Below are positions 33,521 through 42,115 of a DNA stretch of 64,000 nucleotides, piece by piece. Both the position numbers and the translations under genes were made by a program. A model generated the notes under the pieces. That model had not been told where the DNA came from. It saw nothing but the letters and a program-made list of their open reading frames with translations, and did not search any database. Source of the DNA: Limisphaerales bacterium (lineage in GTDB: Bacteria > Verrucomicrobiota > Verrucomicrobiia > Limisphaerales > AAA164-E04); the NCBI GenBank assembly GCA_024761205.1, contig JAMASS010000006.1:62001-126000 (forward strand). Direction: 5' to 3'. Numbering within the stretch: the first letter of the stretch is position 1; each line of letters begins with the position of its first letter.

Positions 33521-33896
33521 ACGGGTGATGGTCGAGATGTCACTCGGTTCGATGATTTTCAAGATGTGGTCGGTGTGGCCTTGAAGACGGTCGCCAATTT
33601 CAAAAAGTTGACGCGCGAAGGATTTTATGATGAGAGGGCTTTTTATCGGGTGATCAAGGGTTTCGTCGTCTATGGTGGCGGTCCGTTGATGAAAGAGCGG
33701 TTTCGGGCGTCCCAATGGGGCACAAGACGGGCCAGGATATTCGATCACTGCGGAGTTAAATGCCCGAGAACATACCTTTAGGTTGATTTTAATGGTGCAC
33801 CAGGGCAATCCCAACAAGGCTGGCAGTCAATTCTTGCTCTGTCTGAATGCTGATCCAGCCCTGAATCGACGTTATGCAGTGTTTGGAAAACTGGTT
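33521..33896 (+). pseudogene. truncated, frameshifted peptidyl-prolyl cis-trans isomerase (cyclophilin type)
   Basis: The fragments run VMVEMSLGSMIFKMW, then TVANFKKLTREGFYDERAFY, RVIKGFVVYGGGPL, then SITAELNAREHTFRLILMVH, PNKAGSQFLLCLNADPALNR and YAVFGKLV. These are successive cyclophilin motifs (TVANFxxLxxxGFYDGxxFHRVIxGFxxQGGDP and AGSQFFICxxxxxxLDxxYxVFGxV). Two frame breaks occur (near 33575 and 33720). The protein is cut after FGKLV, where the frame runs directly into restriction-enzyme sequence. The remaining ~20-30 C-terminal residues are not found after the island. Confidence 0.8.
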
Positions 33897-34289
33897 TGGA
33901 TGGACCTAACCGATCAGGGAAGATTTGGATATGATGAAGGAAAAGTGTTTTGCACCAATACAGCTTTCATAATGACAGGTCAGTCAATTAAATATCTATG
34001 CCCTCTCCTCAATTCAAATCTGATTACCTGGTTTATGCGTCATACTAGCCTAAATTCCGGGATGGGAGTTACCCGCTGGATAGTATTCACCGTTGAAGCC
34101 ATCTCTATCCCCCAAATCCCCGCATCCGATCAAAAATCATTCATCCAACTGCTTGACCGCATCCTTGCCGCCAAAGAGAAAGACCCGAACGCCGATATCA
34201 CCGCCTTGGAAGCCGAAATAGACTCGCTGGTTTATCAACTTTACGGTCTGACCAGTAAAGAAATAGAAATTGTGGAAGGACTAGGCTAA
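33890..34289 (+). pseudogene. C-terminal fragment of a TaqI-like/type IIG specificity domain, fused to the isomerase frame
   Basis: From LVWMDLTDQGRFGYDEG on, this fragment matches the separate minus-strand fragment at 34291-35100 residue by residue: LVW, GRFxYDE, FxMTGxSxKYLCxLLN, SGMGxxxW, VExIxIPxI. These are features of the target-recognition domain of Eco57I/TaqI-like restriction-methylases. It ends ALEAEIDSLVYQLYGLTSKE IEIVEGLG, the usual C-terminal helix of this group. It has no own start; the open frame begins in the isomerase remnant. Without the methylase and nuclease parts it is unlikely to be functional. Confidence 0.75.
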
Positions 34290-34290
34290 T

Positions 34291-35100
34291 TCAGAACATT
34301 TCTTCAATTAACTGAGTTTCTCGTTTGGAGAGCATGTAATTATCATAAGTCAATCTGTTGATTTCTTTTTCCCATTTTCTGGTATCAGCTTCGGGGTCTG
34401 CTTTCTTAGTAATAAGGATTTTGTCTACCAAATCTATAAATGGCTGCTGCTTGGTTTTGGAGAGTTTCGGAATAGGAATGGTTTCGACATAGACTTTTTT
34501 CCACTGAAATGTCCCCATACCGGATGTTGGTGCCACTTGCTGAAGAAACCAGCGTATCAATTCCGCATTTAGCAGAGCGCATAAGTACTTCAAACTACTA
34601 CCGGTCATCATAAATGACGAGTCTAGGCAGTACATTCGGTTTTCATCATAAGCAAAGCGTCCGCTTTCAACCAGTGTAATCCAAACCAGTTTATCGCGCA
34701 TAAACTGCTTGTAGGCCCCAGAATTAAAATAATCCACCTGAAGTTCGTACCATTTGTATGGCACAAATAGGTTGCCGTTTCTGTCTCGCCTTGCCCCGCC
34801 AGTTCTCTTTTCGAGAGCCTCCCGATGAGGCAATAGGTGTCGTTTAATGGCTGGGTAGTTGTCTATTTCTATTCCCGAATAAGAATAGATTAGCCACAAC
34901 TCCGCCCACTGTGCCTGATACCGCTTGATGTCTCGCCCGCGCAGGATCGGTTTCAGCAATTCTTCAGACTTGGGGTCCTCGGCAACTAATGCGTCTTTAT
35001 CCGCTTTATCGACGATAAAGGCGGCATTGTAGCCGGTCTTTATTCCGTAGTTAATGGAAAAATCATGATTTGGCACGCACCGCCCACAGAAACCCGACTC
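34291..35100 (-). pseudogene. truncated restriction-methylase specificity domain
   Basis: An open frame of 291 codons reads from 35166, but the first ~25 residues are antisense to another fragment, so true homology begins near DFSINYGIKTGYNAAFIVDK. ELLKPILRGRDIKRYQAQWA, NLFVPYKWYELQVDYF, LVWITLVESGRFAYDENRMY and SGMGTFQWKKVYVETIPIPK follow. These are the TaqI-like C-terminal specificity domain of class I SAM-dependent restriction enzymes. The methylase (NPPY) part is absent. It ends one base from the convergent plus-strand fragment, so two related tails lie stop to stop. Confidence 0.75.
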
Positions 35101-35139
35101 ATCAACCCGCGAACGGTGATGAGGTAACAGCGTCCATTG

Positions 35140-35283
35140 GTGCAGCTGGCGGAGCACATCCTGCAAGCCAAAGCCGACAACCCGGAGGCTGACACCAGCG
35201 CGGATGAAGCAAAGATTGACCGACTGGTCTATGGGCTGTACAATCTCACAGAAAAAGAAATCTCAACAGTGGAGATAAGGTAA
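35140..35283 (+). pseudogene. third specificity-domain tail
   Basis: A plus-strand frame reads VQLAEHILQAKADNPEADTS, then DEAKIDRLVYGLYNLTEKEI STVEIR and stop. It equals the C-terminal helix of the two neighbouring fragments (AKxxDPxADxxxxExxIDxLVYxLYxLTxxEIxxVE). It ends seven bases before the methyltransferase ATG, so a complete restriction-methylase gene once preceded the methyltransferase in this operon. Confidence 0.7.
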
Positions 35284-35289
35284 GAAGAT

Positions 35290-36405
35290 ATGAAAACGGC
35301 GATGTTAAAACCGACCTTTCATAAACTGCGGCAAGACGCAACGATCAGGTTGGAAACATCCGAACTTAGAGCCGTTGACTTTTTTTGCGGCGGCGGAGGA
35401 ATGACTTATGGCATGAAGCAAGCAAGCATTAATGTAATTGCCGGTTTGGATAGTGACAAAAACTGTAAAGAAACCTATGTTAAAAACAACCCTGACGCTC
35501 AATTTATCCTAGCTGATATTACCCAAGCAGAAATAACAATTCTCTCCGATATAGGAATTAAGACTAATGATGACAACCTTGTTTTTATCGGTTGTAGCCC
35601 ATGTCAATATTGGAGCATTATCAATACCGATCGTCGAAAATCTGAAAAAGACGTAAATCTTCTTGCTTGTTTTCAGAAGTTCGTAAAACACTACAATCCC
35701 GGCTATGTTGTTATAGAAAATGTCCCCGGAATAAAACGTAATGGTGATAAAAGCAAATTGCACACTTTTATTAATTTTTTGAAGAAGCACGGATATGGTT
35801 TTGATGAAAGTATCATCAATGCCAATCTCTACGGTGTTCCTCAGAGTAGAAAACGGTTTGTTCTTATTGCTTCTCGTGTAAGGAAGCACATAAAGTTACC
35901 GGCACCTGATGATTCCGGTCCTGTCGTGAGAAACTTTATAGGACATAAGAACGGTTTTAAAAAAATTACCGCCGGACATAAAGATAAGACAGACTTTAAA
36001 CACAGTTGTGCCGGGTTATCGGAGGTTATGCTCAAAAGGCTTGCCTTAACTCCCAAAAACGGGGGCACAAGAAAATCCTGGAGTGTACGCGAGAACTTGC
36101 AGATCAATGCCTATAAAGGGCGGGATGGCTGTTTTAGAGACGTGTACGGCAGGATGTTTTGGGGTAAGCCGGCTCCTACAATAACTACGCGTTTTACCAG
36201 CATATCTAACGGCAGATTCGGACATCCTGACGAAGATAGAGCGATCTCGTTGAGAGAAGGGGCTACTTTGCAAACGTTCCCACGAAGTTACGTGTTCCGT
36301 TCAAACAGCATGACAACCATGGCCAAACTGATCGGCAACGCCGTGCCGCCTGAGTTGGCAAGGAGAATAGGACTTGCTTTACAAGACAAAAGCGATAGGA
36401 GGTAA
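35290..36405 (+). CDS. DNA (cytosine-5) methyltransferase of the R-M operon
   Basis: The 371-residue protein shows C5-methyltransferase motifs in order: motif I AVDFFCGGGGMTYGM, motif IV GCSPCQYWS with the catalytic cysteine near residue 105, motif VI VVIENVPGI, motif VIII PQSRKRFVLIASR, motif IX with REGATLQTFP, and motif X LIGNAVPPELARRIG. It would protect the host sites from the partner nuclease. It is the first intact gene of an AT-rich operon (methyltransferase, GHKL-nuclease, Vsr). The 3-bp gap and strong AGGAGGT site before the next gene indicate tight coupling. Recognition sequence unknown. Confidence 0.92.
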   Translation: MKTAMLKPTFHKLRQDATIRLETSELRAVDFFCGGGGMTYGMKQASINVIAGLDSDKNCKETYVKNNPDAQFILADITQAEITILSDIGIKTNDDNLVFIGCSPCQYWSIINTDRRKSEKDVNLLACFQKFVKHYNPGYVVIENVPGIKRNGDKSKLHTFINFLKKHGYGFDESIINANLYGVPQSRKRFVLIASRVRKHIKLPAPDDSGPVVRNFIGHKNGFKKITAGHKDKTDFKHSCAGLSEVMLKRLALTPKNGGTRKSWSVRENLQINAYKGRDGCFRDVYGRMFWGKPAPTITTRFTSISNGRFGHPDEDRAISLREGATLQTFPRSYVFRSNSMTTMAKLIGNAVPPELARRIGLALQDKSDRR

Positions 36406-36408
36406 ACC

Positions 36409-38277
36409 ATGACCGAACAAAAAACAGTAAAAATGAGCTTTGACCCCAACACCATTGAGCATTTGGGGGTCCAAATGTATAGCACGCTACCACCGGTTAT
36501 AGCAGAGTTGGTAGCTAATGCCTACGATGCCGATGCGTCAAGTGTGAAGATATCCCTGGAGGATAAGGGAAAGAAGAGAATTATTATCGAAGACAACGGA
36601 CACGGGATGTCTTTTGAAGACTTGGAGGCAAAATTTCTGAAGATTGGCCGCAATAGAAGAGAGAAAAATAATAACCAATATTCGGAATCCGGGGAAAGAA
36701 AGGTTATCGGGAAAAAGGGCATCGGCAAACTGTCGTTTTTCGGCATTGCCGGTCATGTGGAGATAGCTACTTGTAGAGACAGCAAAGAAAACATCTTTGA
36801 AATGGACTGGGGCGGTATAAAACAATCTGACAAGGAATATCATGCCCCGGTTACGAAGCATGATGCCTCTTGTACTAAGGAACAGTCCGGAACTAAGGTC
36901 ACATTGACTGACATCAGAAGGAAAACCCCTTTTGAACCCGACAAATTAGCCGTTGGTTTGGCCAGGAAATTTTCAGTCTTTAATGAAGCAGGTTTCAAAG
37001 CGGAGATTATCCACAATCAAGAGCAGTTCATAAAAGTAACTGATAAAATGAAATACGAGGGCATTGATAGCGAATATCCTTGTGACTTTCCTTATTCGGA
37101 AGTTGATCCTCAATATGAATATGCCGGGCAAATTACCGGTAAAATTATATCGGCAAAAACCCCGGTTGTGTCATCAATGAAAGGAATAGCCCTGTTTTCA
37201 AGAGGGAAGCTCGTAAACGATCATGAATTTTATGGAGAAAAAGCATCCAGTCATGGTTATGCATATTTAACAGGGTGGCTGGATGTGGATTTTATAGATG
37301 AATGGAAACAGGATGTTATCGGAACAAATAGACAATCTTTAAATTGGGAAAATGAGAAGACTACCGAACTAAGAAATTATTTACAGAAGGTTGTGAAAAA
37401 GATTTATTTGGAACGACGTAAGAAAACTGAGGAAAAGAAAAAAGCAGATATCAAGAAGAAAAAGGGGACGGATATCGATCAGTGGTTAGAAGGTCTGCCG
37501 AAATGTGAAAGAGCATTGGCTGACAAAATAGTCAAACAAATTATTACGAGTGAGGGTATTGATACGGAAAAAGCCGGCGAATTGGTTAGTTACGTGCAAG
37601 ACGCCTTCCAGTTTAAGGCATTTAAAGATTTTGCAAAAGAAATTGCTGAGACGGAAGTGATAGAAAGTACTAAGTTCGTCGAATTACTCAAAGAATGGCA
37701 GCTTGTCGAAGCGAAAGAACTGTATCGACTTTCCATAGGTAGAATATCCACGATTAAAGAACTTTCCAAACATATAGAAGAAAATTCCAAAGAAGTGCCT
37801 ACAATGCATCAATTTTTCAAAGAGTTTCCTTGGTTGCTCGACCCCAGAATAATTGAATTCAAACACGAGTTTTCCTTCTCAAAATTTCTCAAGGAAAAGT
37901 TTCCTGATAAAAAATTGGAAGAGGCCGACAGAAGAATAGATTTTGTATGTACGAGTGTTTCCAACAGTTTGTTCATTATTGAATTGAAAAGGCCCGGGCA
38001 TAAAATAACGACCAAGGACTTGGACCAGGCCGCACGCTATAGGTCCTTCTTACAGAATTATATTGGCAATACACCTGAGTCCGCTGGCCAAATAGATGCT
38101 TATGTGGTCGGCGGTAAATATGCTATTGACCATTTTACGAAATCAGAAATTGACTATCGTAAGAAATCCGGGATATTCGTGAAGACTTACTCTGAACTTT
38201 TGCGGAACGCAAAAACATACCATCAAGAATTCATTGACAAATACAAAGAACTGCAAAAGATCAGGCAGAAATTATGA
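36409..38277 (+). CDS. MORC/MutL-like GHKL ATPase fused to a PD-(D/E)xK-type nuclease domain
   Basis: A 622-residue protein. The N-terminal GHKL ATPase shows the N-box ELVANAYDADA, G1 EDNGHGMS and G2 GKKGIGKLSFFG, followed by an S5-like transducer. A charged linker with coiled-coil character (RRKKTEEKKKADIKKKKG) comes next. The C-terminal domain ends with DRRIDFVCTSVSNSLFIIEL KRPG near residues 507-530, the D...ExK arrangement of the DUF4263/Shedu-like nuclease group. Proteins of this design occur as BbrUII/HgiDII-type restriction components, described as MutL/MORC homologues in R-M systems, next to C5 methyltransferases and Vsr. ATP-driven clamping could gate cleavage. No defect is visible. 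Confidence 0.82.
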   Translation: MTEQKTVKMSFDPNTIEHLGVQMYSTLPPVIAELVANAYDADASSVKISLEDKGKKRIIIEDNGHGMSFEDLEAKFLKIGRNRREKNNNQYSESGERKVIGKKGIGKLSFFGIAGHVEIATCRDSKENIFEMDWGGIKQSDKEYHAPVTKHDASCTKEQSGTKVTLTDIRRKTPFEPDKLAVGLARKFSVFNEAGFKAEIIHNQEQFIKVTDKMKYEGIDSEYPCDFPYSEVDPQYEYAGQITGKIISAKTPVVSSMKGIALFSRGKLVNDHEFYGEKASSHGYAYLTGWLDVDFIDEWKQDVIGTNRQSLNWENEKTTELRNYLQKVVKKIYLERRKKTEEKKKADIKKKKGTDIDQWLEGLPKCERALADKIVKQIITSEGIDTEKAGELVSYVQDAFQFKAFKDFAKEIAETEVIESTKFVELLKEWQLVEAKELYRLSIGRISTIKELSKHIEENSKEVPTMHQFFKEFPWLLDPRIIEFKHEFSFSKFLKEKFPDKKLEEADRRIDFVCTSVSNSLFIIELKRPGHKITTKDLDQAARYRSFLQNYIGNTPESAGQIDAYVVGGKYAIDHFTKSEIDYRKKSGIFVKTYSELLRNAKTYHQEFIDKYKELQKIRQKL

Positions 38278-38720
38278 ATGATATTTACTCTATTCGGAAA
38301 CGTAGCGAGATCATGTCGCATATATCCGGTAAAGATACAAAACCTGAAGCTATAGTCCGCAAGTACCTGTTCTCTCAAGGATTTAGATATAAAAAACACG
38401 TCAGTAATTTGCCCGGGAACCCTGACTTGGTTTTACCTAAATACAAAACGGTTATTTTTGTCCACGGATGTTTTTGGCACGGACATACTTGTCTCCGAGG
38501 AAAATCACCGGAAACAAACAGAGATTTTTGGACCAAAAAAATAAATCGGAATAAACAGAGAGATTTGGAAAATATTGATAAATTGAAAACTGTCGGTTGG
38601 CATCCGATAACGATTTGGCAGTGCGAAATCAGTGGCAAGCGGAAAGAGCGTCAGAAAATGAGCGAAGTATGTCAAAAGATAAGATCATACAATGTGTCTT
38701 TAATTAAAGTGACTTCTTGA
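38274..38720 (+). CDS. vsr: very short patch repair endonuclease (Vsr)
   Basis: A 148-residue protein. RSEIMSHISGKDTKPEAIVR, the catalytic-core NPDLVLPKYKTVIFVHGCFWH and WHGHTC match Vsr, and the zinc-binding cysteines and histidines are present. Vsr nicks T:G mismatches arising when 5-methylcytosine deaminates. It overlaps the preceding gene by four bases (ATGA), so it is co-translated and probably repairs mutations at sites of the operon's own methyltransferase. It may also supply the nicking activity of the R-M system, as suggested for related operons. Confidence 0.92.
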   Translation: MNDIYSIRKRSEIMSHISGKDTKPEAIVRKYLFSQGFRYKKHVSNLPGNPDLVLPKYKTVIFVHGCFWHGHTCLRGKSPETNRDFWTKKINRNKQRDLENIDKLKTVGWHPITIWQCEISGKRKERQKMSEVCQKIRSYNVSLIKVTS

Positions 38721-38780
38721 ATGGCATATACACCGCTACCGCTTGGACAAGCTGATAACCCAAATTGCAACTTATCTTAA
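38721..38780 (+). pseudogene. 19-codon truncated ORF abutting vsr
   Basis: An ATG follows the vsr TGA with no gap and reads MAYTPLPLGQADNPNCNLS, then stop. The base composition changes from AT-rich to GC-rich right after 38780. This looks like the first codons of a fourth operon gene cut off at the island border. I cannot name the gene. Confidence 0.4.
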
Positions 38781-40972: not shown

Positions 40973-41434
40973 ATGCCAAAGAAGAAATTTAAAAACGACC
41001 ATCCACTCGCCATTTTCAAAAAATCCCCCATCCACGGGTGGGGAGGGTTCGCCCGCACTGATATTCGCAAGGGTAAGCGCATCATCGAATATGTGGGTGA
41101 GAAACTAACAAAAGAGGAAGCCGAAAAGGCCCTTGAAGATCAGAATTGCTACGTCTTTACCCTCAACGACGAGTTCGACCTAGACGGTAGCGTGAGTTGG
41201 AACCCTGCCCGTTACATTAATCACAGTTGCGCTCCCAATTGCAAATCCGATGTCAAAAGAGATCGCGTTTGGATCTACGCCATCAAAAATATTAAAAAAG
41301 GCGAGGAACTTACCTATAATTACGGCCATGATTTGGATGAGTATCTCGATCGCCTCTGTCACTGTGGTTCTGAGAATTGTGTCGGCTACATGGTTGCAGA
41401 AGAACACTTTGACACCTTAAAGAAGCTTCACTAA
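40973..41434 (+). CDS. SET-domain protein (protein-lysine methyltransferase family)
   Basis: A 153-residue protein made almost entirely of a SET domain. GWGGFARTDIRKGKRIIEYV starts it, the catalytic core is NPARYINHSCAPNCKS, then KKGEELTYNYGHD, and a cysteine-rich post-SET CHCGSENCVGYM binds zinc. These are the residues that bind S-adenosylmethionine and the target lysine in SET enzymes. Bacterial SET proteins are scattered and often acquired from eukaryotes. The target is unknown. It lies 15 bp upstream of rdgB on the same strand, suggesting one operon. Confidence 0.88.
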   Translation: MPKKKFKNDHPLAIFKKSPIHGWGGFARTDIRKGKRIIEYVGEKLTKEEAEKALEDQNCYVFTLNDEFDLDGSVSWNPARYINHSCAPNCKSDVKRDRVWIYAIKNIKKGEELTYNYGHDLDEYLDRLCHCGSENCVGYMVAEEHFDTLKKLH

Positions 41435-41449
41435 CCGGAATATCCCTCC

Positions 41450-42115
41450 ATGTCCTCCCTTCTGATTGTGGCCACGAGCAACGCGCACAAGATTAAGGAG
41501 ATCAGCCAAATTATCGGCTCGGAGTTCAGATGCATCGGGATGCGAGAGCTAGGCCAAATTCCGGAGCTCATCGAATGCGGCGATACCTTTGAAGCCAACG
41601 CAACGTCGAAGGTCGAACAGCTCAACCGATGGCTGGAACAGAATTCAGAGCCCCGCGCAATACTGAAATCTCACTCGGAAATTCTTCTACTGGCCGATGA
41701 TTCAGGGCTGGAGGTTGACGCGTTGAGCGGCGCGCCCGGTGTTCGTTCTGCGCGATTCGCCGCGACAGAGGAATCTACAGGCAACGCCTCCGATCAAGCC
41801 AACAACGAAAAATTGCTAACATTGCTAGAAGACACCCCCGACGAAAAACGAACCGCCCGATTCCGATGCGTCCTTGCCCTGCTCGCATACCCCACCGAAT
41901 CCGCTGCCCAACTGTTTTCAGGAAGCTGCGAAGGTCGAATTGCCAGCGATTGCCAGGGTTCGGGAGGATTCGGCTACGACCCGCTTTTCTATCCCGTGGG
42001 CCATTCGTTGTCCTTCGCCCAGATCGGTTCGGAAACGAAAAACAAAATTTCACACCGCGCACAGGCTTTGACCCAGCTCAAGAACTATCTCGCAACCGAA
42101 GGGGGAGCATCTTAG
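41450..42115 (+). CDS. rdgB: XTP/dITP diphosphatase (RdgB/HAM1)
   Basis: This 221-residue house-cleaning enzyme hydrolyses non-canonical purine triphosphates (XTP, dITP) to keep them out of DNA. The motifs are VATSNAHKIKEI, LADDSGLEVDALSGAPGVRS, GSGGFGYDPLFYP and KNKISHRAQAL. The length is at the upper end of the family because of a short insertion (SEPRAILKSHSEI). It starts 15 bp after the SET gene. Confidence 0.93.
   Translation: MSSLLIVATSNAHKIKEISQIIGSEFRCIGMRELGQIPELIECGDTFEANATSKVEQLNRWLEQNSEPRAILKSHSEILLLADDSGLEVDALSGAPGVRSARFAATEESTGNASDQANNEKLLTLLEDTPDEKRTARFRCVLALLAYPTESAAQLFSGSCEGRIASDCQGSGGFGYDPLFYPVGHSLSFAQIGSETKNKISHRAQALTQLKNYLATEGGAS

Follow-up and report, generated by a model that had tools for sequence, protein, structure and literature searches.

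A paraMORC3-type restriction-modification operon in a Limisphaerales bacterium, with effector exchange and methyltransferase re-pairing among its relatives

When a GHKL ATPase is fused to a nuclease and encoded beside a cytosine methyltransferase, which part reads the DNA, the GHKL module by its methylation state or the nuclease by its sequence? This question is raised by a three-gene operon in the window, a stretch of 64,000 nucleotides from a Limisphaerales bacterium. We analyzed the genes of the operon, the neighborhoods of related proteins, and the trees of the GHKL modules and of their partner methyltransferases.

An intact three-gene operon and its surroundings

On the forward strand, the operon encodes a C5-cytosine DNA methyltransferase (371 aa; 35290..36405), a paraMORC3-type protein (622 aa; 36409..38277) and a Vsr mismatch endonuclease (148 aa; 38274..38720). 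The first and third were identified by ORF and Pfam searches, and the second by Pfam, NCBIfam, an AF2 model and Foldseek. The methyltransferase matched Pfam DNA_methylase (1.3e-53) and dcm TIGR00675 (1.7e-38) and carried the catalytic motifs FCGGGG, PCQ, ENV, QxRxR and GNAVPP, while Vsr matched its Pfam family (9.7e-33) and carried GNPDLV and VHGCFWHGHTC. All ORFs were intact and tightly coupled, as the sequence-only reading of this DNA had claimed: 3 bp separate the methyltransferase stop from the GHKL start, with a ribosome-binding site overlapping the stop (ATAGGAGGTAAACCATG), and an ATGA overlap joins the GHKL and Vsr genes. The same reading had described a restriction-modification (R-M) operon that is AT-richer than its flanks. 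Both points held: the ATPase-nuclease gene adjoins an intact C5 methyltransferase, one of the features of m5C R-M systems, and the GC content of the block was 40.4%, compared to 55.9% in the left flank and 52.5% in the right. No other restriction endonuclease gene was found among the ORFs of the operon, and this was the one full-length copy in its genome. A search for an empty site showed that the ftsK and transporter genes flanking the block are non-adjacent in same-genus genomes. The operon is a real, intact and typical example of an already described kind of R-M system.

Upstream of the operon, a reported restriction-methylase tail was real and proved to be the C-terminal ends of type IIG enzymes, three distinct tails that do not all lie on one strand. 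The first TaqI_C tail (33783-34289, forward strand) is preceded by or fused to a cyclophilin-type isomerase fragment and is 45% identical to the second (34291-35166, reverse strand); the third (about 35127-35283, forward strand) lies just upstream of the methyltransferase as a remnant outside the system. The suggestion that such a tail points to an originally larger system was not supported, since the three tails have two orientations and since, beside the closest relative (L041), which retains the methyltransferase, ATPase-nuclease and Vsr genes, we recovered no type IIG protein. The tails resemble what is left of other R-M genes at a hotspot and do not look like lost components of this operon, and the region 33783-35283 suggests repeated insertion and decay. 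Elsewhere in the window, a 153-aa ORF (40973-41434) by eye resembles a SET-domain protein whose cysteine end is post-SET-like, and adjoins a gene that by eye is Ham1/RdgB-like (41450-42115).

Domains and kin of the ATPase-nuclease

The 622-aa protein consists of a GHKL ATPase domain (residues about 1-175), an S5-like domain (about 176-312), a helical or coiled-coil linker of long helices (about 316-457) and a predicted PD-(D/E)xK nuclease domain (about 460-600; 37786..38274, forward strand). Pfam identified HATPase_c_3 (1.7e-24), and the GHKL motif residues E33, N37, D40, D62, G64, G101, K103, G104, G106 and T162 were invariant across 85 aligned relatives. The AF2 model reached a mean pLDDT of 85 from a 38-row alignment, compared to 36 from the single sequence. 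Foldseek of this model against the PDB returned Hsp90/TRAP1, MORC2, MORC3 and MutL at 1e-13 to 1e-15, in alignments spanning about 370-440 columns. These matches make the GHKL plus S5-like module secure, and with the Pfam result they confirm the GHKL ATPase that had been proposed. Against viral models, Foldseek also returned many phage RIIA proteins (1e-11 to 1e-13), which have the GHKL+S5 fold in common; as an open thought, phage RIIA could interfere with GHKL sensors of this type.

For the C-terminus, Pfam scans of 24 relatives matched HSDR_N_2 in 18, SduA_C in 16, NucS_C in 3 and PDDEXK_4 in 2. Of the 48 relatives that have a PD-(D/E)xK C-terminus, 46-47 retained the catalytic set E462, D511 and E525-x-K527. 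On the strength of these matches and residues, the assignment as a PD-(D/E)xK nuclease is well supported, in agreement with the D...ExK nuclease domain predicted before. A PDB profile search with the nuclease end returned only weak NucS/EndoMS matches and unrelated phycobilisome linkers, and neither this search nor Foldseek matched the domain alone to a solved PD-(D/E)xK structure.

A possible nearness to Shedu (DUF4263) had also been raised. SduA_C is among the closest curated families and matched the 16 relatives at E values up to 0.01 (best 2e-7), but on the window protein it scored 23.4-25.4 bits, below the gathering score of 27, and HSDR_N_2 is almost as close. Alignment with two single Shedu sequences by hhalign gave no usable probability. 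VcSduA of Vibrio cholerae (Shedu type I-D), a GHKL + DUF4263 protein, confers defense against T1-like phages that is lost on mutation of either the ATPase or the nuclease (PMC12137116), so the gating role of the ATPase is not as little explored as had been suggested. VcSduA shares with the window protein the GHKL ATPase N-terminus and a DUF4263-like PD-(D/E)xK nuclease, but it is a stand-alone gene without a methyltransferase or Vsr, and the SduA_C match of the window protein is sub-threshold.

The precedent for this architecture, also anticipated from sequence, is paraMORC3, which Iyer, Abhiman and Aravind described in 2008 beside cytosine methylases and Vsr, with a proposed role in DNA looping (PMC2292703). 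The window protein has all the features of that family, namely intact GHKL ATP motifs, the S5-like domain and a C-terminal restriction-endonuclease fold with E-D-ExK, in the same operon setting. Nothing essential differs; what is added here is the effector swap in the lineage and the re-pairing of methyltransferases. The earlier MORC/MutL-like label can be refined: the protein is paraMORC3, not MORC, since the S5 motif of MORC proper (GhXhhpXXRhl) reads GIALFSRGKLV here, with K267 in place of the signature R. A 'ParaMORC3' annotation beside Dcm was also found in a P2-like phage record.

Missed in the sequence-only reading were the BbrUII/HgiDII restriction enzymes, the nearest relatives that bear a name. 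NCBIfam NF050001 ('BbrUII/HgiDII family restriction enzyme') matched the window protein over its full length (residues 8-619; E=1.6e-99), but the score of 334 bits is under the equivalog cut-off of 550, which places the protein in a sister clade. Five relatives were true members (692-801 bits), and those with a recovered methyltransferase carried a single methyltransferase kind. M.HgiDII and M.BbrUII both methylate GTCGAC to give m5C (PMC5867850, PMC5005818). The window protein shares with these enzymes the order GHKL, S5, nuclease and the adjacent C5 methyltransferase, whereas it forms a separate clade and its methyltransferase is only about 37% identical to the HgiDII type. One same-genus genome had three NF050001 copies above the cut-off. 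In a same-genus genome, two genes of the family with near-identical N-terminal parts lie in tandem (L129; G289:C1:1837500-1848500), and no methyltransferase was found within the fetched stretch.

These kin give rise to the main rival to a methylation-reading GHKL module, a conventional Type IIP enzyme of the HgiDII kind. Here the GHKL protein would recognize and cut the palindrome protected by its methyltransferase, with the ATPase stimulatory or structural. The full-length NF050001 match, the single methyltransferase kind of the true members and the lack of another restriction endonuclease gene in the window operon all agree with it. HgiDII and BbrUII also bear the name of restriction enzymes and have a methyltransferase for GTCGAC, which points to recognition of the sequence itself. 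The window protein's score of 334 against 550 speaks the other way, as do several results below, and we regard this explanation as possible but doubtful.

Conserved neighbors, exchanged effectors and re-paired methyltransferases

We compared eighty genome loci together with plasmid, phage and phylum loci, and made the counts on 91 loci. A C5 methyltransferase was present in the fetched DNA of 81/91, mostly adjacent, either preceding the GHKL gene on the same strand or following it in convergent orientation, and Vsr was present in 24/91; these fractions are not genome-wide rates, because the loci were picked by similarity to the window GHKL protein and their flanks were short. About 10 of the 91, some of them truncated, had no C5 methyltransferase found nearby. 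The expectation that the same three genes would be conserved together therefore stood for the methyltransferase, a near-constant partner, but not for Vsr, which is optional. Within the window clade of seven (the window, L041-L045 and L052), the methyltransferase lay close upstream in all and Vsr was present in five.

The infrequency of Vsr bears on a repair module, in which a MutL-like ATPase-nuclease would act with Vsr on mismatches from m5C deamination. A MutL-Vsr interaction in E. coli, as cited in PMC12907096, and the MutL/Vsr parallel drawn by Iyer in 2008 (PMC2292703) are in keeping with such a module. We rejected it as highly improbable because Vsr is merely an occasional partner; the swaps to HEPN and TIR effectors described below would also be senseless for repair.

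Several loci showed further features. In Neisseria gonorrhoeae (L038, 4107-7072) the operon is broken, with the methyltransferase as two ORFs and the GHKL protein cut to 297 aa, and Vsr is intact (49% identity). On an Acinetobacter wuhouensis plasmid (L033, 1-7875), Mu-transposase, TniB and TniQ genes are followed by the methyltransferase and GHKL-nuclease genes, as if the operon were cargo of a Tn7/Tn5053-like element. A gene for an AAA_15/OLD-like ATPase of about 595 aa recurs beside operons (L045, 5121-6914; L087, 2744-4552; L003, L052, L084 and L098), and in L087 it sits between the methyltransferase and GHKL genes.

About 40 relatives aligned with the window protein to residue 400 only. 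In the members scanned, their C-terminus was Pfam Hypoth_Ymh, and 35/37 HEPN-ended proteins contained the Rx4H motif according to a regular-expression search; a structure profile search with these ends found no solved structure. The HEPN assignment is based on the Ymh match, the Rx4H motif and the published fusion of the Ymh HEPN family to paraMORCs in R-M loci (PMC3710099). Those fusions share with the window system the GHKL module, often the methyltransferase group (50-60% identity) and sometimes Vsr, but their C-terminus is a predicted RNase, whereas that of the window protein is a predicted DNase. A third C-terminal type, in L007 and L011-L013, matched the TIR protein SpbK at 6.5e-6; several TIR-ended relatives adjoin C5 methyltransferases, and the group fits paraMORC4 of Iyer 2008 (PMC2292703).

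We built trees of the GHKL+S5 module (residues 1-334; 36409..37410, forward strand), which is common to the HEPN-ended relatives, and of the partner methyltransferases, both by a quick search with SH-aLRT support only. In the module tree, the window clade (support 94) was sister to 35 HEPN-ended proteins (95) with a joint support of 91, and the HEPN label required two changes. In the methyltransferase tree, the partners of nuclease-type and HEPN-type proteins interleaved: the label changed at least 8 times, and starred branches forced at least 5 of these changes. These comparisons indicate that what varies is the C-terminus, a predicted PD-(D/E)xK nuclease, HEPN-Ymh RNase or TIR domain, on a GHKL+S5 module that keeps its association with the methyltransferase. 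Closely related methyltransferases serve both nuclease and HEPN ends, and methyltransferases and effector types have therefore been re-paired repeatedly. Each effector fusion is already published, and no report of the re-pairing was found in the literature searched, which covered few subscription papers; effector exchange together with re-pairing is the most useful result of this analysis.

If the fused nuclease reads sequence, its recognition part should follow that of the methyltransferase. With the rest of the protein controlled for, sliding windows revealed no segment of the GHKL protein that clearly tracks methyltransferase identity, nor does the methyltransferase target domain track the GHKL protein; being based on pairwise identity, this co-variation test could overlook a recognition surface of small size. 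L110 and L111 share 74% of the GHKL+S5 module with unrelated methyltransferases (27%), L051 and L058 share 66-83% with methyltransferases at 23%, and identity windows across these swapped pairs showed no region that diverges specifically. Both results count against the Type IIP enzyme, as does L043, a member of the window clade that follows a complete HpaII-type methyltransferase and restriction endonuclease (1e-141). As evidence on where the target is recognized, these findings are negative or indirect. HEPN and TIR ends, moreover, cannot be restriction enzymes.

The HpaII enzyme of L043 has counterparts beside several relatives (HpaII in L104, a BsaWI-like enzyme in L111 and the HaeIII family in L034). 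Such separate enzymes would suit a PrrC/RloC-like accessory guard that is silent as long as restriction works and fires when it meets DNA ends, failing restriction or interference from phage, and Ymh-paraMORC fusions have been proposed as PrrC/RloC analogues (PMC3710099). We judge this unlikely for the window operon: neither the window nor L041 has another intact restriction gene adjoining, and the methyltransferase directly adjoins the GHKL gene in most loci, with a separate restriction endonuclease recognized in few.

A predicted sensor licensed by unmethylated DNA

The mechanism we propose, to which we give about an even chance, is an ATP-driven sensor that is licensed by unmethylated DNA and fires a fused, exchangeable effector, here a DNA-cutting one. 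The partner C5 methyltransferase would mark self DNA, and the GHKL+S5 protein would act as an ATP-operated dimeric clamp that senses DNA without the mark. Sensing would switch on the C-terminal effector, in this case a PD-(D/E)xK DNase that would cut foreign DNA, and Vsr would repair the T:G mismatches arising from m5C deamination. Marking of self DNA would thus license the sensor, and do more than mask nuclease cut sites. The sequences themselves show the intact genes, the folds, the active-site residues, the linkage to C5 methyltransferases, the effector exchange and the re-pairing; from these we infer the dimer clamp, the ATP gating, methylation as the signal and DNA as the substrate. The support is comparative: the near-constant C5 methyltransferase, the invariant GHKL residues, the re-pairing, and the need of VcSduA for both ATPase and nuclease in phage defense. 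The exchanged ends add to it, because the substrate of a HEPN or TIR effector is not shielded by DNA methylation, which leaves the sensor as the place where methylation would have to act. With DNA cleavage as the predicted output in the window, the operon is expected to work in the way of m5C restriction. Counting against this mechanism, VcSduA and the roughly 10 of 91 loci without a nearby C5 methyltransferase imply that the module can have other triggers.

More tentatively, these operons may form one family of methylation-licensed immune receptors, in which a GHKL clamp without its own matching target-recognition domain would release a DNase, a HEPN RNase or a TIR NADase. If so, a single sensor would have both restriction and abortive infection among its outputs. 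Restriction enzymes, Shedu nucleases and eukaryotic MORC proteins are connected through this family, and its fixed methyltransferase-plus-GHKL base with exchanged effectors makes it testable whether the GHKL module reads methylation or the nuclease reads sequence. If the GHKL module does read methylation, these operons would offer a bacterial model of MORC ATPases responding to methylated DNA, as well as a sensor that could be given another output through exchange of its C-terminus.
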